In this document: one piece after another, positions 3,642 through 29,711 of the stretch
How positions within the stretch are numbered: position 1 is the stretch's first letter
How the letters are laid out: each line of letters begins with the position of its first letter
Virus record (IMG/VR): IMGVR_UViG_3300021365_000068
Location: 1-29,711 of that record
DNA from: a virus
Strand: one strand, 5' to 3'
DNA: 29,711 nt
Program-made: the position numbers and the translations under genes
The notes under the pieces: generated by a model
Databases searched by the model: none
Told to the model about the DNA's origin: nothing
What the model saw: only the letters and a program-made list of their open reading frames with translations

Positions 3642-5726
3642 ATGTCTACATTAGCACGACTAAGTGTTGACTTGGTCGCGAACTCTGCTGGCTACAGAAA
3701 AGAGCTTGATAAAGCTGGTAAGGCGACAGCCCGATTTAAAAGAAGGGCAGCAAAGCAGTTTAAGGAAATTACAAAGGCGGTAGGCCTTATGGCGGGTGCT
3801 ATGGCACTTGCTGGTGGTGGCGCAATGATTGCGCTCGCTGACCAAATGCAAAATTTAAAAAACAGGATGTTTGCACTTACAAAAGACACCCGCAAAACAG
3901 CTATAGCAATGCGAGACATCGCGACTATTGCGAGAGTTACGCGCAGCGACATCGCAGCCACAGGTGATGTCTATACTAAAATGGCTATTGCAACCGCAGA
4001 TCTGGGCATTAACCAGGAAGAGCTGGCAAAAGCAACTGCAGCCGTTAACAACACATTCTTGTTGTCTGGTGCAAGCACTATGGAAGCTGCTAACTCCGCA
4101 AGGCAGTTGGCGCAGGGTTTAGCTGCCGGTAAATTAAACGGCGATGAGCTTCGTTCTGTTATGGAAAACAACGCCGTGTTAGCTGGCGAGTTGGCGAAAG
4201 GCTTCAACGTTACACGTGGTGAACTGAAGCAAATGGGTGCAGATGGTAAGCTCACAGCTGCTAAGATTATGCCTATTCTTATTGCAGCCTTTGATAGTAC
4301 GAGCAAATCCGTATCAACGATGGAACTTACAGTAAGCCAAGCAGCAATGACTGTAAAGAACAGCTTTACAGAAATGGCAGTTAGTGCTGATGAGTCTTTT
4401 GGTTTTACAAAAACGCTGGCAACTAGTCTCGACTTTTTGGGTAAAAACCTTGAAGTCTTTGCAACGCAGTTTATTTATACCATTGCAATACCGGCAATCG
4501 TAGCGCTTGGTATTGCCATTAAGTCACTGACAGTAATCATCATAGCTAACCCAATTGGTGCCGCCCTAACAGCGCTAGTAATTGTATTTGGCTACGTAGC
4601 GCGCAAAATCCATGAAAATTGGGGCGCAGTACAAAACTTCCTTTTAAAAAGTTTCACTGTAAGTATCCCCAACGCGATTGATCATATTGGCATTGCAGTG
4701 CAGAACCTACAGCTATTCATGGAAGAAGGTTTTAATATGATGCTGATTACAGTGTCAGACTTTGTCAATGACGCAATTGACCTATGGAACAAGGCTGCGG
4801 ATCGCTTTGACTTCCTGGACCGCATTGAGCCAATCACTCTTCAAGTTGATGTTGAAAAAACTAAAAGCAATATTGATCGACTTAAAGCCGCCATCCTGGA
4901 ACGCACTGCTGGCTTTAAGCCACTAGAAGATGCGCTGGGGATTACGTCTTCGGACTCAGGTCCGGGCAACCCGGTAAATCCAGATGGTTCGCCAGACTTT
5001 GGTGAAGCGGGCGTTGATCCGGCGGGCACAACGCCTTCAGGATTGAGCACTGAAAAAATGGCTGAAATGACGCTTGCCGCAGAAACTATGCGGGGTGCCT
5101 TTGAGGACATGGCCAAGCCTATTTCTAATGTGTTTACTAACATGATTAAAGGCGTCACTTCTTTAAAGGATGGCTTGAAAAGCATTGCATCATTAATCCT
5201 GGACAAGGTTATTGGCTCGTTTGTAGAAATGGGTGTGAACTGGGTCCTCCAGCAAACGCTTATGAAGGCTATGGAAGTCGCAGGCATTGCAACCAGTGTT
5301 GCTGCGTCGGTTGCTGCGGGTACGACTATGGCTGCAGCCTATGCACCTGCTGCTGCAATGGCATCGCTTGCGTCCTTTGGTGCAAACTCAGCACCTGCAT
5401 CAGCAGGGATCATCGCCACGACAGCAGTCGCAAAAGTTGCAGCACTGACCGGTCAGGCTCACGATGGTATAGATAGTGTGCCCCGGGAAGGGACCTACTT
5501 GCTTGATAAAGGCGAGCGGGTTGTTGACAGCAGGCTAAACGGTGATCTGAAGCAGTTCCTTGGCAACGCCAACCAGAGCCAGGTCACTAATAACCCAACC
5601 CTCAACTTCAATGTAAGCGGCTCAGATGCTGAGAACGTCGAAGCAATGCTGCGAAACAACCGTGGCCAGTTTGAGGGAATGATTAGGGAAATCTACAACG
5701 AATCGGCGCAAAACAGCCCGTTTTAG
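3642..5726 (+). CDS. tape measure protein
   Basis: A 694-residue tape measure that fixes tail length and is later ejected to help DNA pass the envelope. Residues 1-45 form the usual lead (LSVDLVANSAGYRKELDKAG), followed by a hydrophobic glycine-rich stretch at about 46-66 and the tape-measure N-domain with SARQLAQGLAAGKLNGDE and LRSVMENNAVLAGELAKGF at 156-190. Strongly hydrophobic segments lie at about 277-318, suggesting membrane insertion. The C-terminal region has GIDSVPREGTYLLDKGERVV (about 609-628), common near the end of these proteins. By the rule of about 0.15 nm per residue the tail would be near 104 nm. It is shorter than lambda gpH (853 aa). Confidence 0.92.
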   Translation: MSTLARLSVDLVANSAGYRKELDKAGKATARFKRRAAKQFKEITKAVGLMAGAMALAGGGAMIALADQMQNLKNRMFALTKDTRKTAIAMRDIATIARVTRSDIAATGDVYTKMAIATADLGINQEELAKATAAVNNTFLLSGASTMEAANSARQLAQGLAAGKLNGDELRSVMENNAVLAGELAKGFNVTRGELKQMGADGKLTAAKIMPILIAAFDSTSKSVSTMELTVSQAAMTVKNSFTEMAVSADESFGFTKTLATSLDFLGKNLEVFATQFIYTIAIPAIVALGIAIKSLTVIIIANPIGAALTALVIVFGYVARKIHENWGAVQNFLLKSFTVSIPNAIDHIGIAVQNLQLFMEEGFNMMLITVSDFVNDAIDLWNKAADRFDFLDRIEPITLQVDVEKTKSNIDRLKAAILERTAGFKPLEDALGITSSDSGPGNPVNPDGSPDFGEAGVDPAGTTPSGLSTEKMAEMTLAAETMRGAFEDMAKPISNVFTNMIKGVTSLKDGLKSIASLILDKVIGSFVEMGVNWVLQQTLMKAMEVAGIATSVAASVAAGTTMAAAYAPAAAMASLASFGANSAPASAGIIATTAVAKVAALTGQAHDGIDSVPREGTYLLDKGERVVDSRLNGDLKQFLGNANQSQVTNNPTLNFNVSGSDAENVEAMLRNNRGQFEGMIREIYNESAQNSPF

Positions 5727-12368: not shown

Positions 12369-12686
12369 ATGCACAAGCAAGGCAAAAGAAATGAGGAGTC
12401 GCTGGCTTTACGAAGTAACGCAGGCGTCTTTTTGAAAGCGCTGCGCACTCAGACGCAGCTGACACAACGGGATGTTGCTGAGGCTTTAGGCCTACGCTAT
12501 TACACAATGATCAGCCAGATTGAAAGTGGCGCAGCACGGGTTCCACCTGAGCAATATGCTGCTTACGCTAAAACTCTGGGTGTTGATCCGGCGCTGTTTG
12601 TTCGAAAGCTGACACAATATTATGACCCACACACGTACAGGGCACTGTTTGGCAACGAGCTGTTGTCTCTTAGTGACTTCACCTGA
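12369..12686 (+). CDS. XRE-family helix-turn-helix regulator
   Basis: A 105-residue DNA-binding protein. The helix-turn-helix lies at about 20-65: FLKALRTQTQLTQRDVAEAL, then YYTMISQIESGAARVPPEQY, the usual XRE signature. A short C-terminal region with YYDPHTYRALFGNE is typical of a widespread proteobacterial subgroup rather than of CI-type phage repressors, and there is no peptidase (autocleavage) domain. GAGGAG precedes ATG 12369. Its TGA overlaps the integrase ATG by one base (12686), so it probably controls or is coordinated with integration. The operator-like dyad at 13828 is a candidate target. Whether it is the lysogeny repressor is unknown. Confidence 0.85.
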   Translation: MHKQGKRNEESLALRSNAGVFLKALRTQTQLTQRDVAEALGLRYYTMISQIESGAARVPPEQYAAYAKTLGVDPALFVRKLTQYYDPHTYRALFGNELLSLSDFT

Positions 12687-13702
12687 TGCGCCTTTTTAGA
12701 CGCCCAGGAAGTCAGCAGTGGCAGTATGAGCTATCGACCCCTGATGGTAAAAAGCGCTATTCCGCCAGGACTACTGTTAAAAAAGAAGCACGACTTTTGG
12801 CTGCCTATAAACAACAGCAAGTTGATGACGCACGCAACTTTAACAAAGACCCGTGCATTACCTTAGGTGAGGCTTGCGATAGGTATGTAACAGAGCAGCG
12901 GCGCAAATCACTTGCCAGCCACAAGAACGCAATATGGAACGTCTCACACATTTGTGATGGCAGTCTGTGGGAGCGCAACACTCCCTTTGAAACTTTGTGC
13001 TCAAAAGAGCTAGCTAGACTGCAAAGCAGCAAAGCCCATTTGGCAAACACCTCAATCAACCATCTAACAACGGCCCTAGTCACTATGAAAAACAGGGCTG
13101 AGAGTTGGGGAGTGCAAGCACCAACGTTTAAGGTAAAGAAGCTAAAGACCACGCCTAAATTTCGGTATCTAAGGGAGGGCGAGGAGGCTAAGCTGCTTGG
13201 CGTTTGTAAGTCACAAGAACTAAAAGACCTTATTATTGTACTGGTGGACACTGGCATGCGCATAAGCGAGTGCGTCAGCTTAATGTGGAGTGACGTGGAC
13301 GACCAGGGCGCCCTTGTTTACCGTGGCAAAACTGGCAATCGCACTGTTCTGCCTTTAACGCCTCGAGTGCGCGAGCTGCTTGCCCGGCGGGCTAACAAAA
13401 GCCTTTATGTGTTTCCACATAACACAATACCCAATGCACATCGTACATGCGCCACCAAGGGCATACGCCAAGCTGCAAACCGGGCAGGCTTAAATGCCCC
13501 TGAAGTCACTAAAAAGTTTGGCACGCTGACAGCCCATAGTTTACGGGACACCTATGCCACTCGATTGGTCCTTGCTGGTTTAACGCTGTATCAAGTTCAA
13601 ATCATGCTAGGCCATGCATCCCCAATACAAACCCAAAAATATGCGCACTTGGCCACGGCTGACATTGGCGCCCAAGTTTTAAGCGCGCTTAACAGCACCT
13701 GA
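12686..13702 (+). CDS. tyrosine-family site-specific integrase
   Basis: A 338-residue tyrosine recombinase that should integrate and excise the phage. Residues 1-45 form an N-terminal arm-binding-like region, about 56-150 the core-binding (SAM-like) domain (ITLGEACDRYVTEQ), and 165-338 the catalytic domain. All catalytic residues are visible: Arg192 (TGMRISE), Lys215 (YRGKTGNR), His284 and Arg287 (AHSLRDTYAT), His310 (LGHAS) and nucleophile Tyr319 (QKYAH). Length and intact active site argue for a functional enzyme. It shares one base with the regulator gene before it and is followed by a tRNA-Asn gene about 450 bases downstream, the likely attachment site. Confidence 0.95.
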   Translation: MRLFRRPGSQQWQYELSTPDGKKRYSARTTVKKEARLLAAYKQQQVDDARNFNKDPCITLGEACDRYVTEQRRKSLASHKNAIWNVSHICDGSLWERNTPFETLCSKELARLQSSKAHLANTSINHLTTALVTMKNRAESWGVQAPTFKVKKLKTTPKFRYLREGEEAKLLGVCKSQELKDLIIVLVDTGMRISECVSLMWSDVDDQGALVYRGKTGNRTVLPLTPRVRELLARRANKSLYVFPHNTIPNAHRTCATKGIRQAANRAGLNAPEVTKKFGTLTAHSLRDTYATRLVLAGLTLYQVQIMLGHASPIQTQKYAHLATADIGAQVLSALNST

Positions 13703-13728
13703 ACGATTAACCTACATTATATGAAGAC
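13702..13728 (+). promoter_or_regulatory. putative phage RNA polymerase promoter, copy 1
   Basis: AACGATTAACCTAC followed by ATTATATG and AAGAC, starting on the integrase stop codon. It shares this layout with copies at 17705, 20268 and 20342. By analogy with T3 (ATTAACC... core) and SP6 (TATAGAAG) promoters, the start site would be the G at 13723. It reads toward the attachment region and polymerase gene but meets a terminator 10 bases later. Confidence 0.72.
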
Positions 13729-13732
13729 GTTG

Positions 13733-13755
13733 AAGCCGCTTAATTGCGGCTTTTT
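13733..13755 (+). terminator. intrinsic terminator after the integrase
   Basis: AAGCCGC (13733-13739), loop TTAATT, GCGGCTT (13746-13752), then T residues to 13755. The stem and loop are the same as in the terminator at 17736. Confidence 0.9.
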
Positions 13756-13827
13756 AATACCGTCAATTACCACTAATTTTACTTGCAGATAAATTTTATT
13801 CGCAATTAAATTTAATACTTAGTAAAA

Positions 13828-13860
13828 ACTGTGTACATACGTGTACAGTAAGTCTATTAT
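13828..13860 (+). promoter_or_regulatory. candidate promoter with operator-like dyad
   Basis: GTGTAC (13831-13836), an 18-base spacer and TATTAT (13855-13860) form a candidate promoter. The -35 lies inside an imperfect 22-bp dyad at 13828-13849, running from ACTGT to ACAGT, with 16 of 22 positions symmetric. A protein bound to the dyad would block the promoter. The spacing between CTGT and ACAG (12 bases) is not that of a LexA box. The XRE regulator is a possible ligand. Confidence 0.5.
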
Positions 13861-13897
13861 GTCCCCTTACACTATTACTCACTTATGATTAAGGGAC
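13861..13897. repeat. inverted repeat overlapping the ribosome binding site of a small ORF
   Basis: GTCCCCTTA (13861-13869) and TAAGGGAC (13890-13897) pair except for one bulged C. The right arm contains AAGGGA, the ribosome binding site for ATG 13903. If transcription starts far enough upstream, the hairpin could hide this site; with the start predicted near 13867 only part of the left arm would be in the RNA. Confidence 0.5.
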
Positions 13898-13902
13898 AAT
13901 TT

Positions 13903-13980
13903 ATGGAAAAGCAAAGTGGAGAGCAAGGATCAGACATGATCTGGTGGCTAACTGAACCAGAGGAACGTGGATATGTGTGA
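13903..13980 (+). CDS. possible leader-type peptide (25 aa)
   Basis: ATG 13903 follows AAGGGA at a good distance and encodes 25 residues, MEKQSGEQGSDMIWWLTEPE followed by ERGYV. It is the first reading frame after the candidate promoter at 13831 and overlaps the next small frame by 8 bases, which could couple their translation. I do not recognise it. It may be a leader peptide or chance. Confidence 0.3.
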   Translation: MEKQSGEQGSDMIWWLTEPEERGYV

Positions 13981-14146
13981 AGTGCTATCTATTGTTAAGA
14001 AGGCTTTGGCCACCAAGCTGCCAGAGGAGTTGACACTGCTGCAGCTATCGCAAGCCGAAGATGAGAAACTATGGGGAATACTAGAGGTGCGTGTCCCCGC
14101 TACTATTCACCATGGAGATTTTAGGAAAAACAAATGCACCCTTTAG
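13973..14146 (+). CDS. small hypothetical protein (57 aa) beside the tRNA
   Basis: A frame of 57 codons from ATG 13973 to TAG 14144-14146, with GAGGAACG about 7-13 bases upstream as a weak to fair ribosome binding site. The sequence is helix-prone (EVLSIVKKALATKLPEELTL and LSQAEDEKLWGILEV). Its position after the candidate regulated promoter, between integrase and tRNA, would suit a small regulatory or excisionase-like protein, but it has no visible helix-turn-helix and is not clearly basic. No homologue is recognised. Confidence 0.42.
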   Translation: MCEVLSIVKKALATKLPEELTLLQLSQAEDEKLWGILEVRVPATIHHGDFRKNKCTL

Positions 14147-14153
14147 AGCTAAG

Positions 14154-14229
14154 TGGCTCCGACACCTGGGCTCGAACCAGGGACCCACGGATTAACAGTC
14201 CGTTGCTCTACCAACTGAGCTATGTCGGA
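14154..14229 (-). tRNA. tRNA-Asn (anticodon GTT), complete, with encoded CCA
   Basis: On the minus strand the 76 bases fold as a full cloverleaf: acceptor TCCGACA with TGTCGGA, D-arm GCTC/GAGC, anticodon stem ACGGA/TCCGT around loop CTGTTAA (anticodon GTT), T-arm CCTGG/CCAGG around TTCGAGC, discriminator G and CCA. There is no mismatch in the stems. Phage attachment sites usually carry only the 3' part of a tRNA, so a complete gene is notable. Its 3' end faces the integrase, as expected for a tRNA used as integration target. It could also be a phage-borne tRNA used in translation. Confidence 0.95.
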
Positions 14230-14241
14230 ATTACTCAAAAA

Positions 14242-14259
14242 GGACACAAAGCGGACACA
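14242..14259 (+). repeat. candidate integrase arm-type sites, pair 1
   Basis: Two GGACACA motifs at 14242 and 14253, 11 bases apart (one helical turn). The composite repeat GGACACAAA, two variable bases, then GGACACA recurs 237 bases to the right. It lies 13 bases from the tRNA. Confidence 0.55.
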
Positions 14260-14562
14260 CATGCGCAACTTTGTATCTATCAACCTTTCTACAAAAAGCC
14301 TGAAACTCTTGCTATGCATACGTTTCAAGCCCCTCTAACTAAGACCACCTCTGAGACTCTAATGATTAACAGTTGTACGTCACTAAGTTACGCAATACTC
14401 AAAGTCACGCCATATAAGGCTTTCAGCCTTTCTCCGCGCGGTTCTCGCGCACCACCAAGCTAATACTAGACTTAAATCGGACACAAACTGGACACAGTTG
14501 GTGCGCTCTCGCGTGCCTGTAAGAACCGTTTTACCTATTAAAACCAACAAGCGAGGAATACC
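14260..14562. other. non-coding stretch between tRNA and RNA polymerase gene
   Basis: About 300 bases without a convincing gene. I see a weak terminator-like stem AAGGC/GCCTT (about 14416-14430), a GC stem GCGCG/CGCGC (14436-14450) and the second pair of GGACACA repeats. A host-type promoter for the polymerase gene should lie here: TAATAC at about 14461-14466 or the TTGTAC at about 14371 are possible elements, but neither forms a clear promoter. GCGAGGAA gives the ribosome binding site for the gene at 14563. Confidence 0.5.
14479..14496 (+). repeat. candidate integrase arm-type sites, pair 2
   Basis: GGACACA at 14479 and 14490, again 11 bases apart and in the same orientation as pair 1. The first 9 bases of both composites (GGACACAAA) are identical. 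Confidence 0.55.
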
Positions 14563-17031
14563 ATGAAGCAGCATAGCAATGAAGACCTAATAAAAGAAGT
14601 ACTCTGGGAAAACCACCAAATCGAAGAGGGGGTCCGACGGTACCGCGAGGCCCTGGCAGATAAATCTCCGAATGATACCAAGGGCGGGATGCGGCTAATA
14701 CAAAGCGCAACGCCCAACACGGTGACTGGCATCAAGGCCGCTTATAAGGACGTCGAGACAACTCTTATGAGTGGCAAGGCAGGCAACACACCAAACTGGT
14801 TATTTTTAATTGGTATGGTGAAGGCCGAACAGGCAGCCGTAATTGTAGTTTCACAGGCTATTAAGCACTCCACCTCACCTGATAATATGTTGACCCTTAC
14901 AACCTTGGCGAACAATGTTGGGGCAGCTTTGAGACAGCAGCTTATGTTTGAGAATTGGAAGAAAAACGAACGGGCTAAGGTTAAAGAGCACAATGCAACC
15001 TGTGAAGAGGGCGAGGAGTACGTCAAGTCATTTGCAGAGATACTAATCGAAAGGGCCAAGGGTAACGTAACACGGCCAAAGCTCGCTAGATGGCGCTCAA
15101 AGTTTGACACCTATACCAACATTGAGTGGGGAGCAGATCAGGTTGTGATCGGCATGAAGCTCATTGAGATCATGGTGGACTGCAATCCTGATGTCTTTAG
15201 CTACAAGATGGTAATGATCAAAGGCAAAAAGCAAAGGCTTTTGAACCTTACCGAAGCAGCCTGGGTCCAAGTGCAGTCGCTGAATGACGGGGCAGAGCTT
15301 AACACCCCGGCACTTCTCCCTACTCTTATACAGCCATTGGAATGGCACTACGAAGATGGGCAAGTTGTCGGTGGCTACCACCACATAAAGCAGCCCCTGT
15401 TTAGTCAACGAGTGTCAAAGCATACTGCTGACGATCCGAATGCCACCTCACAGCGGTTTTTAGACTCAATCACGGCGGTTCAAAATACAGCATGGGCAAT
15501 CAACCCCTATATGTGCATGGTGATCGACATGATTGTAGGCACTAAGCAGCCGCTCGGAGAGGTGCCCGTTGTATGCGCGTTGGAAGCTCCACACATGGCT
15601 GAAGCTGACTACAACGCAATGACGCCTGAAGCTCGAAAAGCTTATCACCAAGAGCGCTCTGCAATACTTGAAGAAATCGCTAGCCAGCGAGGTCGTCATG
15701 GCGCCTTTGCAAGAAAGCTAGTGATTGCCCGAAAGCTACTCCAGCATGACAAGTTCTACTTTCCACATTTTGCTGATTTTCGTGGGAGAATTTATCCAAT
15801 GCCTCAGGAGCTTACCCCCCAGGGTGATCAGGTGGCCAAGTCGCTGCTGTGCTTTGCTGAAGGTAGGGCTTTGGGTGAAGATGGTTTGTATTGGTTAAAG
15901 GTGCATGCAGCAAATACTTATGGCAAGGACAAGTTGAGTCTTGCAGAGCGTGTTGCATGGACTGAAGCTAACCTGGAAAACATGGCCGAAAGTAGTATTG
16001 ACCCGCTCACTCACACGTTTTGGTCTGAGGCCAATGAGCCCCTCATGTTTTTAGCTGCTGCAAAAGAGCTTACTGACGCCCATGAAGTAGCACAACCTTG
16101 CAACTATATTTCACGCATTCCTGTGGCAATGGATGGGACTTGTAACGGAATCCAACTATTAAGCCTTTTGGGCCGTGACAATGTAGGCGCAGAGAAAACA
16201 AACTGCCGGGCAATCGACCAACGCTTTGACCTTTATTCTGAGGTTGCCGCTAAGGTCCTTGAGATTTGTGCACGGGATCGTTTTACAAATTCAACAGCAG
16301 AAGAATGGTACGCACGTCTGCACAATGCACCTGGAAAAGCTCGCAAGGTCGTGAAGCGTGCCGTGATGACTACGCCCTATGGCGTGACGGCTCGTGGTAT
16401 TGCAAAGCAGCTGGTTGGAGACAAGCATTGCAACGACCTTGGTGATGTGTCGCGGCTAACAGCATCCGATTACATGAAGGATTGCATTTTAGAAGCGATG
16501 GCTGAAGTTAATGGCAAGGCTGTTGAAATCATGGGCTACATTCAGGACACCGCTGCGAAGCTATCAGAGCAGCAGCTGCCACTATCATGGTATACACCAA
16601 TGGGGCTTAAGGTTACTCAGGCCTACTACAAACAGGCTGACAAACGCATTCAAACTGTTTTTGGTACGGTCGTGCTTTGGGCTGAAGATAAGGCAATGGG
16701 CATGGACGCACAGAAGCAGTATCAGTCGTCAGCACCTAATGTCATTCATAGCTTTGATGCTGCAATGCTACAGATGACGGTTGAAAAGCTCGCCGCCCTG
16801 GGCCACACGGACTTTGCCATGATTCACGATAGCTATGGTATGCACGCCAGCGAAATAGGGCTCTTACACAGTGTGCTGCGACAGGTTGCTTTTGAGATCT
16901 TTAGCCATGACAACCTTGCAGAGTTTCACGCTTACGTGCAGGCCCAAACTGAGGTTCCACTTAGAAAACCACCGGCCCATGGTAAGTACGAGATGTCCGA
17001 GATTGTTGACGCCCCTTATTTTTTCTCATGA
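14563..17031 (+). CDS. single-subunit DNA-dependent RNA polymerase (T7-like)
   Basis: An 822-residue phage RNA polymerase (T7 enzyme 883 aa). Catalytic motifs are intact: DFRGRIYPMP at 405-414, Asp524 in VAMDGTCNGIQ (T7 Asp537), Arg594, Lys598 and Tyr606 in RKVVKRAVMTTPYG (T7 Arg627, Lys631, Tyr639), and His755-Asp756 in IHDSYG (T7 His811-Asp812). The chain ends with an aromatic foot, YFFS, like T7's FAFA. The N-terminal promoter-binding domain is more divergent. The enzyme should transcribe the replication genes from the four copies of the conserved element described separately. GCGAGGAA precedes ATG 14563. The gene is presumably read first by host RNA polymerase. In the rightward gene order it comes before the replication genes, as in T7. 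Confidence 0.97.
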   Translation: MKQHSNEDLIKEVLWENHQIEEGVRRYREALADKSPNDTKGGMRLIQSATPNTVTGIKAAYKDVETTLMSGKAGNTPNWLFLIGMVKAEQAAVIVVSQAIKHSTSPDNMLTLTTLANNVGAALRQQLMFENWKKNERAKVKEHNATCEEGEEYVKSFAEILIERAKGNVTRPKLARWRSKFDTYTNIEWGADQVVIGMKLIEIMVDCNPDVFSYKMVMIKGKKQRLLNLTEAAWVQVQSLNDGAELNTPALLPTLIQPLEWHYEDGQVVGGYHHIKQPLFSQRVSKHTADDPNATSQRFLDSITAVQNTAWAINPYMCMVIDMIVGTKQPLGEVPVVCALEAPHMAEADYNAMTPEARKAYHQERSAILEEIASQRGRHGAFARKLVIARKLLQHDKFYFPHFADFRGRIYPMPQELTPQGDQVAKSLLCFAEGRALGEDGLYWLKVHAANTYGKDKLSLAERVAWTEANLENMAESSIDPLTHTFWSEANEPLMFLAAAKELTDAHEVAQPCNYISRIPVAMDGTCNGIQLLSLLGRDNVGAEKTNCRAIDQRFDLYSEVAAKVLEICARDRFTNSTAEEWYARLHNAPGKARKVVKRAVMTTPYGVTARGIAKQLVGDKHCNDLGDVSRLTASDYMKDCILEAMAEVNGKAVEIMGYIQDTAAKLSEQQLPLSWYTPMGLKVTQAYYKQADKRIQTVFGTVVLWAEDKAMGMDAQKQYQSSAPNVIHSFDAAMLQMTVEKLAALGHTDFAMIHDSYGMHASEIGLLHSVLRQVAFEIFSHDNLAEFHAYVQAQTEVPLRKPPAHGKYEMSEIVDAPYFFS

Positions 17032-17074
17032 AGTACAGTAACTGTGAATTAAATAGTATATAGTTAGCATTTAA

Positions 17075-17104
17075 GTGTACGTGCGCCAGGGAAGGCGACA
17101 TAAT
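17075..17104 (+). promoter_or_regulatory. candidate sigma70-like promoter before a small gene
   Basis: GTGTAC (17075-17080), 18-base spacer, CATAAT (17099-17104). The same hexamers and spacing occur at 19495, and CGACATAAT is shared by both. A perfect palindrome ACAGT A ACTGT lies 30 bases upstream (17035-17045). Confidence 0.5.
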
Positions 17105-17139
17105 GTTTACATCAAATAACGAAACGAAAGGAAACAATC

Positions 17140-17337
17140 ATGAAAACATACATAGGCCGTTTTACCTCTAACTACGATAGCACTTTCGAAGTAACTGTAA
17201 TTAAGCGCACAGAGAAGACTGTAACCTTTATCCACCCGCACACTAAAGAAACTAAGAGAGCTAAGATTCACAATCACAATGGCGAGTTCTTTATGCCTTT
17301 TGGCAGCCACTCTATGTCACCTATTATTGAGCTTTAA
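17140..17337 (+). CDS. small hypothetical protein (65 aa)
   Basis: A basic 65-residue protein with a beta-strand pattern (YIGRFTSNYDSTFEVTVIKR and TVTFIHPHT) and several histidines; not recognised. The leader, ending AAAGGAAACAATC before ATG 17140, is nearly the same as that of the gene at 19564, and both follow the same type of candidate promoter. It is the first of the small accessory genes after the RNA polymerase and is followed by a terminator, so it is probably its own transcription unit. Such genes in T7-like phages often counter host functions, but nothing specific is visible. Confidence 0.6.
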   Translation: MKTYIGRFTSNYDSTFEVTVIKRTEKTVTFIHPHTKETKRAKIHNHNGEFFMPFGSHSMSPIIEL

Positions 17338-17375
17338 TTTAGCTGCCCCTTCGGGCCCCAAAAGTCTCCCCCCTT

Positions 17376-17396
17376 GCCCCTTAATTGGGGCTTTTT
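17376..17396 (+). terminator. intrinsic terminator
   Basis: GCCCC (17376-17380), loop TTAATT, GGGGC (17387-17391), TTTTT. A smaller hairpin GCCC/GGGC with loop CTTC lies just upstream (17344-17355) but lacks a T-tract. Confidence 0.85.
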
Positions 17397-17433
17397 GGTA
17401 GAAGTACAAAATAAACTATTAGAGGACTACTTT

Positions 17434-17706
17434 ATGCGCGATTTAACTAACGTAACTATCAACAGTCTGTACGAAGTACGCAGTAACCTTAAACTTGAGC
17501 TAAAAAGAGCTCGCAAAAGTTTACTTAATCGTGCCACATCGATGACTAACTGTGGCACTAGCATGCAAAATGGTCTTTCAATCGACACGCACGGCCGACT
17601 TCTTAATGATTTAAACGACACTTTGATTGAACTCCATCGTGAGTTTGTTGAGGTATCAAATGAAATCACCAAACGGTACCAAGTTAATGCCGATCTTTAT
17701 GGGTAA
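17434..17706 (+). CDS. small hypothetical coiled-coil protein (90 aa)
   Basis: A 90-residue protein, mostly helical with many charged residues: LYEVRSNLKLELKRARKSLL near the start and LNDTLIELHREFVEVSNEI near the end, heptad-like in parts. ATG 17434 is chosen because AGAGGA lies about 9 bases upstream; an earlier in-frame ATG at 17374 would start inside the terminator hairpin. No domain is recognised. Its stop codon is directly joined to the second putative phage promoter. Confidence 0.55.
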   Translation: MRDLTNVTINSLYEVRSNLKLELKRARKSLLNRATSMTNCGTSMQNGLSIDTHGRLLNDLNDTLIELHREFVEVSNEITKRYQVNADLYG

Positions 17707-17732
17707 CGATTAACCTACGTTATATGGAAGAC
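17705..17732 (+). promoter_or_regulatory. putative phage RNA polymerase promoter, copy 2
   Basis: AACGATTAACCTAC followed by GTTATATG and GAAGAC, starting on the stop codon of the preceding gene; predicted start at G 17726. As in copy 1, a terminator with the same stem-loop follows within 10 bases. Confidence 0.75.
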
Positions 17733-17735
17733 GCC

Positions 17736-17759
17736 AAAGCCGCTTAATTGCGGCTTTTT
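17736..17759 (+). terminator. intrinsic terminator directly after phage promoter copy 2
   Basis: AAAGCCGC (17736-17743), loop TTAATT, GCGGCTTT (17750-17757), T-run to 17759. Core stem and loop are identical to those at 13733. Confidence 0.9.
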
Positions 17760-17789
17760 GCTATTTGAAATATGACTGAGGAGTCAATT

Positions 17790-18308
17790 ATGAATATATT
17801 CGCTTTATCTGCAAACCCTATCGAAGCTGCAAAGCTGCAATGCGATAAACACGTTGTGAAAATGATCTTAGAAACAGCACAAATGCTGTCAACAGCTCAC
17901 CGTGAACTAGGCTCCAAAATATCTGAAGAGCTGCTTTATAAAAAAACACATGTGAACCATCCATCGGCCGTGTGGCTGCGGAAATCCTGGCCAAATTATC
18001 GTTGGGCTGTTGCTCACTTTGAAGCCTTATGTGACGAGTACACTTTTCGCTACAAAAAAGTGCACCTGTCCGACACTAAATTTCGCGAAGCGTTTCGCCG
18101 GCATGCCCCTACTAATCTTCCAGTTGATGCCGGGTTTTGTGTCCCTCCACAGTGTATGCCTGATGACTACAAAGTCGAATGTGAAAGCAGCCGAGACTGG
18201 GGTGCAACTATCGAAGCATATCGCCAATATTACGCAGCGGAAAAATCATCAATTGCTCGCTATACCAAAAGACCAACCCCATCCTTTATTAACCTGGAGT
18301 GCGATTAA
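17790..18308 (+). CDS. conserved phage protein of unknown function
   Basis: A 172-residue protein. ATG 17790 is preferred over 17772 because GAGGAG lies between them at normal distance. It belongs to a family I know from many phages of Gram-negative bacteria without an agreed function: it starts MNIFALSANPIEAAKLQCDK, continues HVVKMILETAQMLSTAHRE, then THVNHPSAVWLRKSW with NYRWAVAHFEALCDEY, and later QCMPDDYK and AYRQYYAAEK. Conserved Cys18, Asp19, Lys20, His21 and the HP..VW segment suggest an enzyme, but this is inference. It is mostly helical with no membrane segment. The stop overlaps the next ATG (TAATG). Confidence 0.8.
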   Translation: MNIFALSANPIEAAKLQCDKHVVKMILETAQMLSTAHRELGSKISEELLYKKTHVNHPSAVWLRKSWPNYRWAVAHFEALCDEYTFRYKKVHLSDTKFREAFRRHAPTNLPVDAGFCVPPQCMPDDYKVECESSRDWGATIEAYRQYYAAEKSSIARYTKRPTPSFINLECD

Positions 18309-22171: not shown

Positions 22172-22400
22172 CCTTCTTGTCTCTATCGCATCGCTACCCG
22201 CCAAGCTGCTGGGCTACGCATTGATTTTATGTGGATTTTGCTTTGCCACCCTAGGCGCTTTGTTGGCTAAAGCCGGCGCATGGATGGCGAGCGTCGAAAT
22301 CATGTCCATCACGCTTCCCGCCGATACCGAAGTTGACCTCACTGACGACGAGCTTCGTGACATTTGTAATAGGGCAGCAAAAACCCGTAAACCAGACTGA
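22164..22400 (+). CDS. small membrane protein (78 aa)
   Basis: ATG 22164 has GGAGG about 9 bases upstream and overlaps the end of the winged-helix gene. Residues about 9-45 hold one long or two short hydrophobic helices (AKLLGYALILCGFCFATLGA, then LLAKAGAWMA), followed by a soluble acidic tail (DTEVDLTDDELRDICNRAAK). Earlier starts in the same frame would run through the previous gene and are rejected. No family recognised; a membrane-anchored early protein. Confidence 0.55.
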   Translation: MRSLLVSIASLPAKLLGYALILCGFCFATLGALLAKAGAWMASVEIMSITLPADTEVDLTDDELRDICNRAAKTRKPD

Positions 22401-22410
22401 GGAGTCCATC

Positions 22411-23217
22411 ATGTACAAAAACGAAAGTGGCTACCAAGCCTTGATATTGGATGTCTTACAAAATGGCATCAACCGTCCTGACCGGACAGGCACAGGAACC
22501 ACTGCCGTTTTTGGTCGACAGATAGTCTTTGAAGATGTTGCCAATAACTTCCCATTGTTCACCAATCGTAAGATCTACACAAAGGGCGTCATTGGGGAGC
22601 TGTGCGCATTTGTCAGAGGCGCAACCTCGGTTGAAGAGCTCAAATCTTGGGGCTGCAACTACTGGGATGGCTTTGCTATTGAAGATGCTGACCCCGAGTA
22701 CGACCTTGGGCCCATTTATGGCGCGCAGTGGCGAGAGTTTAACGGCCAAGAGTGTGACCAGTTGCGCGGCGTAATTTCAAACCTAAAGTCTAACCCGTAC
22801 TCGCGCAGACATTTGGTATCCGCATGGAACCCTATCGAGCTTGACGACATGGCACTACCGCCATGCTTTCATGCGTTCCAGCTGTTTGTGTCTGATGGTG
22901 TCCTGGACATGATCTGCTTAATGAGATCAGTCGACATTTGTATCGGGCTGCCCAGTGACGTCTTCCTGCACGCAATGCTGCTTAAGCTCATCGCAGCTGA
23001 AGTCGGGCTCATCGCCGGGGACCTCACGTTCCAAACAGGGGACACGCACATTTACAACAACCACCTGGAGCAGGCTCTGGTTATTGCAGAGCGAGACCTG
23101 TGCCCGCCATGTAGCGTGACTATCGATCAAACAGCGACTGTACAAGTCGCCCCCGAGCATATCCACATAACCAACTACACCCATCAACCAGCCATAAAGT
23201 TAGGAATATCAATATGA
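22411..23217 (+). CDS. ThyA-family enzyme, possibly dCMP-specific (methylase/hydroxymethylase)
   Basis: A 268-residue thymidylate-synthase fold protein (E. coli ThyA 264 aa). Visible are RTGTGT (25-30), Arg132-Arg133 in SRRHLVSAWNP, catalytic Cys152 in LPPC, Arg172-Ser173, Asp175, and THIY with His213 and Tyr215. Two positions depart from ThyA: Asp183 (GLPSD) in place of Asn177, and Met171 in place of Gln165. T4 dCMP hydroxymethylase has Asp179 and MRS at these places, and Asp179 is known to select cytosine. The residue after the catalytic Cys is Phe, not His. So the substrate may be dCMP, giving 5-methyl- or 5-hydroxymethyl-dCMP. Plain dUMP methylation cannot be excluded. Start: GAGGAG before ATG 22411. 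Confidence 0.88.
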   Translation: MYKNESGYQALILDVLQNGINRPDRTGTGTTAVFGRQIVFEDVANNFPLFTNRKIYTKGVIGELCAFVRGATSVEELKSWGCNYWDGFAIEDADPEYDLGPIYGAQWREFNGQECDQLRGVISNLKSNPYSRRHLVSAWNPIELDDMALPPCFHAFQLFVSDGVLDMICLMRSVDICIGLPSDVFLHAMLLKLIAAEVGLIAGDLTFQTGDTHIYNNHLEQALVIAERDLCPPCSVTIDQTATVQVAPEHIHITNYTHQPAIKLGISI

Positions 23218-25099: not shown

Positions 25100-26998
25100 A
25101 TGAGCGAGACGATGACTGAGTACCAAAAATATATAGCCCTAAGCCGATATGCCCGCTGGTTGCCTGAGGAAGCACGCCGGGAGACTTGGGAAGAAACCGT
25201 TGACCGCTACATGATCAACGTAGTTGCCAAAAAAGTTGATCCCGATACATACCAAGAAATAAGAACTAGCATACTTGAACTAAAGGTTATGCCCTCAATG
25301 CGTGCCCTGATGTCTGCAGGCCCCGCAATGGATCGCGATAACACCTGTGCCTATAACTGCAGCTATTTGCCTGTCGATGACCCAAAGTCATTTGATGAAG
25401 CAATGTTTATCCTGTTGTGTGGTACGGGGGTGGGCTTCTCTGTCGAGCGGCAGTATGTCTCAAAGCTGCCTGATGTGCCTGATGAGTTATTTCCCAGCAT
25501 GACCACGATTGTGGTACGTGATAGCAAAGAAGGCTGGGCAAAAGCCTTGCGCCAATTGATGTCGCTGTTGTGGTCTGGTGAAGTCCCAGTTTGGGATGTC
25601 TCCCGGGTACGCGCAGCAGGCACAAAGCTCAAAACCTTTGGTGGCCGTGCAAGCGGACCTGCACCCCTGGAAGAGCTATTTGCCTTTGTTTGTGAAACCT
25701 TCAAAGCAGCAGCAGGCGGTCGCCTGTCCTCGCTCCAGTGCCATGACATCATGTGCAAAATCGGTGAGGTGGTTGTAGCTGGTGGCGTTAGGCGTTCAGC
25801 CATGATTAGTCTGTCTAACCTGTCCGATGACCGCATGCGTCATGCTAAGTCTGGCAACTGGTACGACATGGAGCCGCAACGAGGGCTAGCAAACAACTCA
25901 GTGGCATACACCGAGAAGCCTGATGTTGAAACGTTCCTGCGTGAGTGGTCTGCCCTGGTTGAATCTAAGTCTGGCGAGCGTGGCATATTTTCACGCATAG
26001 CCTCACAGAAGCAGGCTGGTAAGAACGGCCGCAGGGACGCCTCACGCGACTTTGGCACCAATCCGTGCAGCGAAATCATTTTGCGCCCGTACCAGTTTTG
26101 CAACCTAACCGAGGTTGTGATCCGGGCTGATGACACTGAAGCATCGCTTGAGCAAAAGGTTCGAGTGGCGTCTATCCTGGGCACAATCCAATCAACCTAC
26201 ACCAAATTCCCATACTTAAGAAAGCTCTGGGAAAACAACACGTCAGAGGAAAGGCTGCTGGGTGTATCGATGACAGGCATCATGGACAACTATCAGGTTT
26301 CTACTGGACCTGATGCTGCCGGGATCCTGGAGCGCCTTAAACAGGTTGCTATTGATACTAATGAGCTCTGGGCCGAAAACCTAGGCGTCGAAGTCTCAAC
26401 AGCCATCACCGCTGTGAAGCCATCGGGCACAGTTTCCCAACTGGTCGATTCAGCATCCGGGATTCATACACGCCATTCTGAGTACTATATCAGGACTGTG
26501 CGCGGTGATAACAAGGATCCACTAACGCAGTTCCTCCAGGCTAAGGGCATACCAAGTGAGCCATGCGCGTACCGGGGCAACACAACAACGGTCTTTAGCT
26601 TCCCAACCAAAGCACCTGAGGGCGCAGTGACCCGTGATGACATCAACGCTATTCAGCAGCTAGAAATTTGGCTGATGTACCAGCGCCATTGGTGTGAGCA
26701 CAAGCCTTCGGTGACCATCACAGTCCGCAATGAGGAGTGGCTTGATGTTGGCGCTTGGGTTTATAAGCACTTTGATGAGGTCTCAGGTGTGTCATTCCTG
26801 CCGCATTCGGACCACACCTACAAGCAAGCTCCTTACCAAGAGATTACCGCAGAAGCATACGAAGCAGCATTTGCTGATATGCCTACGGCTATCGACTGGA
26901 CGGGGCTACAGGAGTTTGAAAAAGAAGATACAACAGTGAGCAGCCAGACCATGGCATGTAGCGGTGACAGCTGCGAGCTTGTTGACATCGGAGGTTAA
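25100..26998 (+). CDS. class II (adenosylcobalamin-dependent) ribonucleotide reductase
   Basis: A 632-residue monomeric, RTPR-like reductase that turns ribonucleotides into deoxyribonucleotides. NPCSEI supplies Cys323 (thiyl radical site) and Glu325, with Asn321; Cys87 (YNCSYLP) and Cys334 (YQFCNL) form the active-site disulfide pair. GTGVGFSVER and KPSGTVSQLVDSASGIH are typical of the family. The C-terminus ACSGDSCELVDIGG holds the mobile Cys pair used for re-reduction. No small radical subunit or glycyl-radical activase gene lies nearby, consistent with B12 use. Such enzymes are common in marine phages and work in oxic or anoxic cells. AAGGAA precedes ATG 25100. A terminator follows the gene. 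Confidence 0.92.
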   Translation: MSETMTEYQKYIALSRYARWLPEEARRETWEETVDRYMINVVAKKVDPDTYQEIRTSILELKVMPSMRALMSAGPAMDRDNTCAYNCSYLPVDDPKSFDEAMFILLCGTGVGFSVERQYVSKLPDVPDELFPSMTTIVVRDSKEGWAKALRQLMSLLWSGEVPVWDVSRVRAAGTKLKTFGGRASGPAPLEELFAFVCETFKAAAGGRLSSLQCHDIMCKIGEVVVAGGVRRSAMISLSNLSDDRMRHAKSGNWYDMEPQRGLANNSVAYTEKPDVETFLREWSALVESKSGERGIFSRIASQKQAGKNGRRDASRDFGTNPCSEIILRPYQFCNLTEVVIRADDTEASLEQKVRVASILGTIQSTYTKFPYLRKLWENNTSEERLLGVSMTGIMDNYQVSTGPDAAGILERLKQVAIDTNELWAENLGVEVSTAITAVKPSGTVSQLVDSASGIHTRHSEYYIRTVRGDNKDPLTQFLQAKGIPSEPCAYRGNTTTVFSFPTKAPEGAVTRDDINAIQQLEIWLMYQRHWCEHKPSVTITVRNEEWLDVGAWVYKHFDEVSGVSFLPHSDHTYKQAPYQEITAEAYEAAFADMPTAIDWTGLQEFEKEDTTVSSQTMACSGDSCELVDIGG

Positions 26999-27004
26999 AC
27001 CATC

Positions 27005-27027
27005 AGGGGTCGCAAGGCCCCTTTTTT
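27005..27027 (+). terminator. intrinsic terminator with GNRA loop between reductase and DHFR genes
   Basis: AGGGGTC (27005-27011), loop GCAA, GGCCCCT (27016-27022), one G-T pair, then T residues to 27027. As the downstream gene begins 15 bases later with no promoter visible, it probably attenuates rather than stops transcription. Confidence 0.85.
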
Positions 27028-27041
27028 ATTTGGAGACACTA

Positions 27042-27524
27042 ATGAAGCTATCAATAATTGCAGCTGTAAATGCTGACAATGTAATCGGTAAGCAGGGCGC
27101 GTTGCCCTGGCACATCCCAGAAGATCTGGAGTATTTCAAAGCAGTAACAATGGGCAAACCCATCCTGATGGGGCGCAAGACATTTGAATCTATTGGTCGG
27201 GTTCTCCCCGGGCGCATTCATATTGTACTGACCCGCAACCCTGACTGGAGCCATCCTGGTGTCCTGGTTGCTCGCAACATGCACCACGCGATAGCAATAG
27301 CGGAGGATGTCGCCGAGGTAATAGTCATTGGAGGCCAACAGGTCTACACCGATGCACTCCCGTACGTTGACAAGCTGTACCTCACTGAAGTGCAAACAAA
27401 GGTGACTGATGCAGATGCGTTTTTCCCAGCTTGGAACAAGAACAAGTGGCGTGCTACCAAAGTGACCATGCCTGCTAAACCTCAAAAAATACCATACCGC
27501 TTTATTGTTTACGAGAGACCTTAA
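27042..27524 (+). CDS. dihydrofolate reductase
   Basis: A 160-residue DHFR (E. coli FolA 159 aa) that restores tetrahydrofolate with NADPH. It shows IIAAVNADNVIGKQGALPWH, catalytic acid Asp28 in IPEDLEYF, the NADPH-binding MGRKTFESIGRVLPGR and IVIGGQQVYTDALP, and ends with RFIVYERP. All family motifs are intact. ATG 27042 has TGGAGA upstream. ThyA-type methylation oxidises the folate cofactor to dihydrofolate, so this gene supports a methylating activity of the ThyA homologue encoded 3.8 kb upstream; hydroxymethylation would not need it. Confidence 0.95.
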   Translation: MKLSIIAAVNADNVIGKQGALPWHIPEDLEYFKAVTMGKPILMGRKTFESIGRVLPGRIHIVLTRNPDWSHPGVLVARNMHHAIAIAEDVAEVIVIGGQQVYTDALPYVDKLYLTEVQTKVTDADAFFPAWNKNKWRATKVTMPAKPQKIPYRFIVYERP

Positions 27525-27535
27525 CGGAGGAGCTC

Positions 27536-29428
27536 ATGAAGACCCTGATTTTTGACTTAGAAACAGATGGTTTTGTCGATAGCATGACGACCATTTGGTC
27601 CTGTGGCATCGGCGATCCGGTGACGGGCGAAATACAAACCTATACTGATTATGATGATGACTACCCATCATTGCAAACAGGTATTGAGCGTCTGGTTGCA
27701 GCTGACAGAGTAGTCGCGCACAACCTCATTGGGTTTGACTATTGGGCCCTGCACAAACTTTATCCCAACACTCTAAGGTTTGAGCAGCTTTGGGATTCAA
27801 TCGTTGTAGCAGCCCTAATTGAGCCAGAACGACGCTCACATGCCATCAAAGCATACGGCCAAGAGTTTGGGGCTGAGAAGGGTGACTTTACGAACTTCAC
27901 CATGCAGCTGGAAGACGGAAAAACACGCGAGCAACAGTTCAAAGAAATGTTCCTGTATTGCGAGCGCGATGTGGAGATCAATATGAAGATCTACCACAAA
28001 TTGCAGGCGCAGATGAAGCATGACCTTGTGCACGAAAACATCGACTGGAGGCCCTCAATCGTCAATGAGCACCAAACGTGCTGGGCTCTTGCATTACAGC
28101 AGGCTCACGGGTTTAGGCTCGACCTGGATAAAGCACGCGAGCTTGAAAGCGTACTGACTGAGGAGGCAGTGCTGCTTGATCGTGATATGGGTGATACGTT
28201 CCCACCACAGTACATCCCAGATGGAGCCACATGGGACCATAACGAACATCGCTGGGCAAACATCAAGGTTGCTGACCCAAAGGTCCAGAACAAGTCACGT
28301 GGGATCACTAAAGGCGCTCCGTACACCAAAATAAAGTGCGAAGTGTTTAACGCTGGATCTAGGCTGCAAATTGTACGTCGATTGACCAGTAAGTACCCTG
28401 CTTGGAAACCTAGCAAGTTCACTCCGAGCGGGGTACCCCAGATCGATGAGTCGGTACTGGCCAATCTTCGAGTGCCTGAAGCTGAACCTTTAAAACGGCT
28501 GTTTCGGGTAGAGAAGCAGCTGTCGCAGTTGGCTGGTGGCAAGAACGCGTGGCTCAAGTTGGAGAAAGATGGGCGGGTGCACGGGCGGGTAAAGTCTGTG
28601 GGCTGCCGCACGCATCGCATGAGCCACTTTAATCCCAACATGGGCCAAGTGGATAAGAAAGACATCCGAATGCGTCAGGTGTGGGTGCCGGATCACGGGC
28701 ACAAACTTGTGGGCTGTGATGCCTCCGGGCTAGAGCTTCGAATGCTTGCGCACTATCTAGCTATATGGGATGGGGGCGAGTATGCCAAGGCTGTGATATC
28801 TGGTACGGCTTCTGAAGGTACGGATGCACACACTCGCACGCAAAAGCTAGCAGGCTTAAACAGTCGTGACTCTGCCAAAACCCTCATCTACGCGTTCTTG
28901 TATGGGGCTGGTGATGTAAAGCTCGCTGATGTGCATGCAACTGATGCTAAGAACGCGGGGCTCAAACCGATGGCAATCACGCGACCGAACGGCAAGAAGA
29001 TTCGGAACTCGCTGCTTAAAGGTATCACGGGCCTGGATAAGCTAATTGAGGTCTGCCAGGACCGCGACAAAAAGCAGAAGTGGCTGAAGGGCTTAGATGG
29101 CAGGAAGATCGCTACAAACGGCCAGCACTCAGCCCTCAACACGCTTTTGCAAGGTGCTGGTGCGGTTGTTATGAAAGAAGCAACAAACCAATTCCACTTT
29201 CACATACTTCCGAAGCTCGGCCTTGTCGATGAGCACTGGATGCCAATAGGTTGGAACTATTGCGCAACGGTCCACGATGAAGTTCAGCTGTCTGCAGCCC
29301 CTGAGATCGCTGAGGTGCTTGGTCAGGCCTACGCAGATGCCATCACGCAAGCCGGAGAATTCTTAAGCTTACGGTGCAAACTAGATGGCGAGTATGGTGT
29401 AGGAGACTCCTGGGCTGCCACACACTAA
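27536..29428 (+). CDS. family A DNA polymerase (T7 gp5-like) with 3'-5' exonuclease
   Basis: A 630-residue replicative polymerase (T7 gp5 704 aa). The exonuclease domain has FDLETDG with Asp7 and Glu9 (Exo I) and AHNLIGFDYW (Exo II). Polymerase motif A is GCDASGLELR with Asp395; motif B, RDSAKTLIYAFLYGAG, has Tyr452 where T7 has Tyr526 and E. coli Pol I has Phe762; motif C is VHDEVQ with His580-Asp581. Proofreading and synthesis should both be active. A thioredoxin-binding loop like that of T7 is not obvious, so the processivity factor is uncertain. CGGAGGAG precedes ATG 27536, 11 bases after the DHFR stop. The repeat array starts right after the stop. Confidence 0.97.
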   Translation: MKTLIFDLETDGFVDSMTTIWSCGIGDPVTGEIQTYTDYDDDYPSLQTGIERLVAADRVVAHNLIGFDYWALHKLYPNTLRFEQLWDSIVVAALIEPERRSHAIKAYGQEFGAEKGDFTNFTMQLEDGKTREQQFKEMFLYCERDVEINMKIYHKLQAQMKHDLVHENIDWRPSIVNEHQTCWALALQQAHGFRLDLDKARELESVLTEEAVLLDRDMGDTFPPQYIPDGATWDHNEHRWANIKVADPKVQNKSRGITKGAPYTKIKCEVFNAGSRLQIVRRLTSKYPAWKPSKFTPSGVPQIDESVLANLRVPEAEPLKRLFRVEKQLSQLAGGKNAWLKLEKDGRVHGRVKSVGCRTHRMSHFNPNMGQVDKKDIRMRQVWVPDHGHKLVGCDASGLELRMLAHYLAIWDGGEYAKAVISGTASEGTDAHTRTQKLAGLNSRDSAKTLIYAFLYGAGDVKLADVHATDAKNAGLKPMAITRPNGKKIRNSLLKGITGLDKLIEVCQDRDKKQKWLKGLDGRKIATNGQHSALNTLLQGAGAVVMKEATNQFHFHILPKLGLVDEHWMPIGWNYCATVHDEVQLSAAPEIAEVLGQAYADAITQAGEFLSLRCKLDGEYGVGDSWAATH

Positions 29429-29432
29429 ATTT

Positions 29433-29711
29433 GGAGCACCAGTCTAAAGTTAGATGTGACTGTCCCTAGAAAAAAGCAGCCGTCCAAAGTTGGATTTGGC
29501 CGTCCTTAGAAAAAAGCAGCCGTCCAAAGTTGGAGCACCAGTCCAAAGTTGGATTTGGCTGTCCCTAGAAAAAAGCAGCCGTCCAAAGTTGGAGCACCAG
29601 TCCAAAGTTGGATTTGGCTGTCCCTAGAAAAAAGCAGCCGTCCAAAGTTGGAGCACCAGTCCAAAGTTGGATTTGGCTGTCCCTAGAAAAAAGCAGCCGT
29701 CCAAAGTTGGA
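29433..29711 (+). repeat. 59-bp tandem repeat array, cut by the window end
   Basis: Full units begin GGAGCACCAGTCC at 29532, 29591 and 29650 and a fourth starts at 29709, each exactly 59 bases apart and identical as far as I can read. A diverged unit starts at 29433, and a 40-base partial unit lacking the first 19 bases lies at 29492-29531. Each full unit contains the dyad TCCAA AG TTGGA twice and a stem GGCTG/CAGCC around a loop with TAGAAAAAA. As 59 is not a multiple of three, it is not a coding repeat. No unique spacers are present. Confidence 0.93.

Follow-up and report, generated by a model that had tools for sequence, protein, structure and literature searches.

A thymidylate synthase-like enzyme predicted to methylate dCMP in an uncultivated phage and a clade of related phages

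We analyzed a 29,711-nucleotide stretch of viral DNA (IMG/VR record IMGVR_UViG_3300021365_000068, positions 1 to 29,711), hereafter the window, which contains a gene of the thymidylate synthase (TS) family within a block of genes for nucleotide metabolism and replication. The features of interest, including a partner gene found in two related assemblies (G001 and G002), are as follows.

22399..22404, + strand: GAGGAG ribosome-binding site of the TS gene, read from the sequence, 6 bases 5' of the ATG
22411..23217, + strand: TS-family enzyme, predicted dCMP methylase, 268 aa (PF00303, residue alignment, AlphaFold model)
22855..22857, + strand: Leu149 codon, 3 residues before the catalytic Cys; Leu as in ThyA, not Asp as in the T4 hydroxymethylase
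22864..22869, + strand: codons of catalytic Cys152 and Phe153 (E. coli Cys146 and His147 by alignment)
22921..22923, + strand: Met171 codon (E. coli Gln165 by alignment), alone not diagnostic
22957..22959, + strand: Asp183 codon (E. coli Asn177 by alignment), the dUMP/dCMP specificity switch described in PMC8670742
25100..26998, + strand: class II ribonucleotide reductase of the same gene block, for dNTP supply (phrog_367, E=2.7e-186)
26964..27524, + strand: dihydrofolate reductase (DHFR; Pfam DHFR_1, E=1.1e-55, match from residue 29)
27536..29428, + strand: family A DNA polymerase, the final gene of the block to lie complete within the window (Pfam DNA_pol_A, 6.4e-29)
G001 4952-5326, - strand, and G002 35066-35440, + strand: PRA-PH/MazG-like pyrophosphatase (PF01503, E=4.4e-15)

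The open reading frame at 22411-23217 is intact, with 268 codons translated and no internal stop. The match to Pfam Thymidylat_synt (PF00303, E=4.9e-74) spans residues 8-267, nearly the whole protein, and together with the catalytic Cys152 identifies it as a member of the TS superfamily. It shares 38% identity with E. coli ThyA, about 42-44% with bacterial ThyA proteins and 21% with T4 gp42. The AlphaFold model has a mean pLDDT of 93 and superimposes on the structure of E. coli ThyA with a Z-score of 36.6 and 1.3 Å over 259 residues. T4 dCMP hydroxymethylase was not among the 50 structural matches listed for the model, which is uninformative either way.

The window is contained in the 37-kb contig G001 with 99.99% identity, and the independent 42-kb relative G002 is 84% identical to the window DNA. 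The TS protein is 100% identical in the former assembly and 91% in G002, where its start and length are the same. Between the window and G002, the codons of the two unusual residues differ synonymously (GAC versus GAT for Asp183, TTT versus TTC for Phe153); neither residue is thus a sequencing slip, as both are found in two assemblies with differing codons. The dN/dS ratio between the two genes is about 0.11 with both residues retained, indicating that purifying selection acts on the gene. Dinucleotide ratios (observed/expected CpG 0.78-0.85, TpG 1.27-1.30) are uninformative on 5-methylcytosine in all sequence contexts.

Alignment to E. coli ThyA, whose numbering we use below for positions 147, 165 and 177, places Asp183 at Asn177, Met171 at Gln165 and Phe153 at His147. 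An earlier note on this DNA had made the first two assignments, and had added that T4 gp42 carries Asp and Met at the same two positions, which the alignment bears out. The spacing between the catalytic Cys and the switch residue is 31 in the window protein, ThyA and T4 gp42 alike, so that no gap can move Asp183 off position 177. Every other catalytic or phosphate-binding TS residue that we checked is kept, as is the C-terminal Ile: Arg25 (ThyA Arg21), Glu63 (Glu58), Trp85 (Trp80), Tyr103 (Tyr94), Arg132/133 (Arg126/127), Leu149 (Leu143), Arg172 (Arg166), Asp175 (Asp169), His213 (His207), Tyr215 (Tyr209) and Ile268 (Ile264), the last residue of the TS C-terminal tail NYTHQPAIKLGISI. The intact Cys152 and phosphate arginines had likewise been read correctly before. 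Compared with ThyA, the protein therefore shares the fold, the length, the folate-site and phosphate residues and the tail, but has Asp for Asn177, Phe for His147 and Met for Gln165. This trio is not chance background, since His147, Gln165 and Asn177 stand together in every one of the 80 best bacterial relatives. Phe147, already noted as unusual, is restricted to the window phage and G002 in the set examined. Met165, however, is also found in phage TSs of the Asn177 type (L013, L014 and L034 in the profile alignment, and more by tblastn). Met171 by itself is thus no pointer to dCMP and was dropped as a marker; the earlier note was right about its position and not about its diagnostic value.

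The replacement of Asn by Asp at position 177 turns TS from dUMP to dCMP and yields 5-methyl-dCMP, as reported for the engineered E. coli N177D and L. casei N229D enzymes (summarized in PMC8670742). In the same MetaGPA study, 177 and 147 were the two TS positions with the strongest association with modified-cytosine phage contigs (PMC8670742), and the window protein deviates from ThyA at both. Whereas the Asn177 of canonical dUMP enzymes is replaced by Asp183 in both assemblies, the TS scaffold is otherwise preserved, and the combination of Asp177 with Trp85, Leu149 and Ile268 is the one expected of a dCMP methylase. In comparison with the engineered enzymes, this one-residue switch of a TS scaffold is here natural, clade-wide and accompanied by recurrent partner genes. 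At the ribose site, the protein has Ser173 and Arg132, a Ser and Arg pair reported to favor dCMP over CMP, and not the Ala and Lys that replace them in MilA-type CMP hydroxymethylases.

A dCMP-using enzyme could alternatively be a hydroxymethylase, in which water quenches the exocyclic methylene to give, as in T4, 5-hydroxymethyl-dCMP that might be decorated further. The catalytic Cys, Asp177 and Met165 are common to T4 gp42 and the window protein, as is Asp177 to Xp15, and some Asp177 phage modules, that of Xp15 among them, carry a carbamoyltransferase gene like the one decorating 5-hydroxymethylcytosine (PMC8670742). Hydroxymethylases are, however, marked by an acidic residue three positions before the Cys, a Ser or Thr two before the active-site Tyr and the absence of the TS tail (PMC6400193). 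T4 gp42 has Asp145 and Ser94 and no C-terminal tail, and Xp15 shows both signature residues too, whereas the window protein has Leu149, Pro101 and the tail; likewise, T4 gp42 and Xp15 combine Asp three before the Cys with Thr147, where the window protein and its G002 counterpart have Leu and Phe147. Differing on all three points, the enzyme should methylate and not hydroxymethylate, if it uses dCMP. The phage also encodes DHFR, which fits a folate-oxidizing methylase and for which a hydroxymethylase has no need. Moreover, no glycosyltransferase or carbamoyltransferase was recognized among the scanned window ORFs or the scanned genes beyond. We therefore regard a hydroxymethylase as unlikely and, given dCMP as the substrate, a methyl group as the probable product, in agreement with the preference for a methylase expressed in the earlier note. 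Elsewhere in the comparison set, a single phage (L034; 8625-9683 and 15514-16221) encodes two TS-family enzymes, a canonical one with Asn177 and a T4-like one with Asp177 in which Glu stands three before the Cys; the latter is probably a hydroxymethylase.

Another group of phage enzymes with Asp177 is the Xp12 type, for which AXL1 stands in for Xp12 (MT664984) in our comparison. The DNA of Xp12 contains 5-methylcytosine in place of all cytosine (PMC7653180), and the DNA of its relatives AXL1 and DLP4 is cut by few or none of the restriction enzymes tried (PMC9206674, PMC6469090). Asp177 was present in the members checked of this lineage (AXL1, DLP4, Mallos and relatives of RDJL6, RcSimone and JWX), which also share with the window phage a MazG-like/PRA-PH pyrophosphatase partner and, in most, a nearby DHFR gene. 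In AXL1, where Asp177 was checked, and in DLP4, genes for the pyrophosphatase, the TS-family enzyme, dCMP deaminase and DHFR form one cluster. The enzymes themselves differ: Asn three before the Cys and Pro147 were aligned in AXL1, Mallos and relatives of RDJL6, Tedan, RcSimone and JWX, and the Xp12 type has Leu, Ile or Val at 165, another C-terminus and a separate clade (support 100/100). With Leu149 and Phe153, and outside that clade, the window protein does not belong to the Xp12 lineage, and is TS-like at these sites except 147 and 165.

Searches that used the relatives as queries recovered many phage proteins sharing a 'GLPS/A-D' motif. The 'GLPSD' clade includes the isolates Edwardsiella KF-1, Vibrio VPMS1 and Dickeya Amaethon, whose enzymes belong to the same Asp177 clade as the window protein and are all annotated as 'thymidylate synthase'. 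KF-1 shares with the window protein the 'GLPSD' motif and the Leu three before the Cys, but keeps His147 and Gln165 and is only about 34% identical. Across the clade, the Leu is found in nearly all members and position 147 is His, except for the Phe of the window phage and G002. In a tree built after removal of the trait columns, these two lie at the base of the Asp177 clade (support 99/90), which neighbors canonical TS (97/96) and stands apart from the Xp12-type enzymes (100/100). The tree is unrooted and gives no order for Asp and Asn, and the branches of the T4-type rows are too long for placement. One Asn-type row of the residue comparison, L052, comes from a Felix O1-like Salmonella phage and not from a Pamexvirus. 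Asp177 is kept across the clade except in L193 (6001-6789 of a 235-kb contig), which has Asn177 and whose record contains neither PF01503 nor a dCMP deaminase; it may be a natural reversion or the ancestral state. As one change separates Asp-type from canonical Asn-type rows bar L193, we do not claim that Asp177 arose independently in this clade.

The neighborhoods of these genes also differ by type. A homologue of the MazG-like/PRA-PH NTP pyrophosphatase lies near the TS gene at 50 of 54 clade loci versus 2 of 40 Asn-type (dUMP-type) phage loci, counts that represent related sequences and not independent events. These figures come from pairwise searches, because the PF01503 profile misses divergent pyrophosphatases such as that of KF-1; the profile itself matched 7/9 Asp-type records versus 0/31 Asn-type records, a set that includes L034 with its additional T4-like Asp enzyme. 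Among 30 further records, PF01503 was present in 23 and a dCMP deaminase in 25. In the clade loci, the pyrophosphatase gene is usually directly downstream, and the commonest arrangement is an overlap with the TS stop codon or a direct junction to it. PRA-PH (PF01503) and dCMP deaminase domains also co-occurred with TS in the MetaGPA study (PMC8670742). Such pairing suggests that a competing dNTP is actively removed. At one locus (L005), a small DUF1599 protein (nucleotide modification associated domain 1; 4095-4376) is encoded directly upstream of the Asp177 TS, which is followed by a pyrophosphatase and a deaminase.

The window phage is arranged differently from most of the clade. Its pyrophosphatase gene lies 8.7 kb downstream of the TS gene, beyond the window, whereas KF-1, VPMS1 and Amaethon have theirs directly downstream. 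The EExxE...ExxD motif is intact in G001 and G002, and the best isolate matches are mostly Xp12 relatives. The earlier note had seen no dCTPase or nucleotide kinase in the window and suggested a search beyond it: that search produced this PRA-PH protein, just outside the window, as a good candidate for the dCTPase. No kinase, dCMP deaminase or second TS was recognized in the window ORFs and the scanned genes beyond. The DHFR gene, whose true start may be downstream of the listed GTG, is close by, 4 kb downstream of the TS gene. Near the pyrophosphatase gene, G001 and G002 also encode a stand-alone PF18909 protein. In KF-1 (L203 13344-13952) and Amaethon (L205 9385-9984) the same domain is fused to dCMP deaminase, which suggests that it belongs to a cytosine-modification module.

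The remaining genes give a mixed picture of the phage. Window positions 12369-18308 hold temperate-type siphophage genes (repressor-like, integrase, tape measure and tail fibre), and with its integrase and repressor-like gene the phage appears to be temperate. It also carries T7-like replication genes and an 822-aa RNA polymerase of its own (phrog_414, 8e-174), a combination seldom seen. A tRNA-Asn(GTT) gene between integrase and RNA polymerase (14154-14229, - strand), present in G001 and G002 as well, is a possible attachment site. Tandem repeats of 59 bp follow the DNA polymerase gene (29427-29711), with more than five copies in G002; they are likely the reason why the contig breaks at the window end and are possibly origin or regulatory iterons. 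In G002, an 823-aa ORF with collagen-like Gly-X-Y repeats (491-2962) probably encodes a tail fibre.

The neighborhood also bears on the possibility that the enzyme is an ordinary dUMP-type TS which tolerates Asp183, with the pyrophosphatase merely feeding dUMP synthesis. Fold and identity are nearest to canonical TS (bacterial ThyA proteins; Z about 36), and a pyrophosphatase together with dCMP deaminase would suit the dTMP pathway. The closest solved relative of the window phage's pyrophosphatase is DR2231, a dUTP-hydrolysing enzyme, so that the phage protein need not act on dCTP. Nevertheless, Asp is kept across the clade at the very position of the published switch (PMC8670742), the pyrophosphatase accompanies Asp-type and hardly ever Asn-type phage TSs, and the Asn-bearing clade member L193 has neither partner gene. 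An ordinary dUMP enzyme is consequently quite improbable. The proposal of the earlier note that Asp183 determines dCMP specificity gains support from the clade-wide conservation of the residue and from the strong signal of the gene neighborhood, and dCMP is very probably the substrate of the window enzyme.

A plausible reaction would begin with attack of Cys152 on C6 of dCMP, while Asp183 would orient the cytosine and protonate N3. The carbon would come from methylene-tetrahydrofolate, and the folate would then transfer a hydride to complete the methyl group, giving 5-methyl-dCMP and dihydrofolate, the latter to be recycled by the phage DHFR. Kinases, presumably of the host, would then make 5-methyl-dCTP; the MazG-like pyrophosphatase may remove dCTP and supply dCMP; and the phage polymerase would build 5-methylcytosine into DNA, protecting it from restriction. 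We consider it fairly likely that the enzyme is a dCMP methylase feeding 5-methyl-dCTP, and hence 5-methylcytosine, into the phage DNA. Alternatively, 5-methyl-dCMP could be made for partial replacement of cytosine or for another use such as control of the dCMP pool, leaving mostly ordinary cytosine in the virion. A kinase and a deaminase were not found in the phage by our scan, and a temperate phage would also be copied within the host chromosome. The DNA of DLP4, a temperate Xp12 relative, nonetheless resisted all 36 restriction enzymes tried (PMC6469090), so lysogeny, which the window phage appears to share, is no obstacle; the pyrophosphatase partnership, too, speaks for removal of the competing dNTP, and we judge partial replacement or another use to be improbable to a slightly greater degree than a dUMP enzyme. 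An inactive or repurposed TS-like protein, to which the Phe at His147, unusual even within the clade, might point, is extremely unlikely in view of the fully kept catalytic residues, the low dN/dS ratio of about 0.11 and the confident TS fold.

These comparisons are best read as placing the window enzyme in a lineage of TS-like dCMP methylases that stands apart from those of Xp12 and T4 and whose members now carry the annotation thymidylate synthase. We lean, with some reserve, towards a third such lineage that gives many phages 5-methylcytosine genomes, spanning the window phage and G002, KF-1-like podoviruses (Edwardsiella, Vibrio, Dickeya and Pseudoalteromonas) and dozens of uncultivated phages. 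A published DNA-modification test for KF-1, VPMS1, Amaethon or PH1 was not found in the open literature, nor a measured activity or virion base composition for any clade member in the literature. Very few phages are known to replace cytosine fully with 5-methylcytosine, Xp12 being the measured case in the literature consulted. If this clade does likewise by a TS-like route, base-modified genomes would be commoner than annotation suggests, and the prediction concerns phages already isolated, namely KF-1, ETP-1, VPMS1 and Amaethon. If true, it would show the TS scaffold acting on dCMP in nature and could provide reagents for 5-methyl-dCMP. It also carries a warning that predictions of the chemistry of phage DNA, and of how sensitive it is to restriction of types II and IV, should rest on the single residue 177 and not on the TS annotation.
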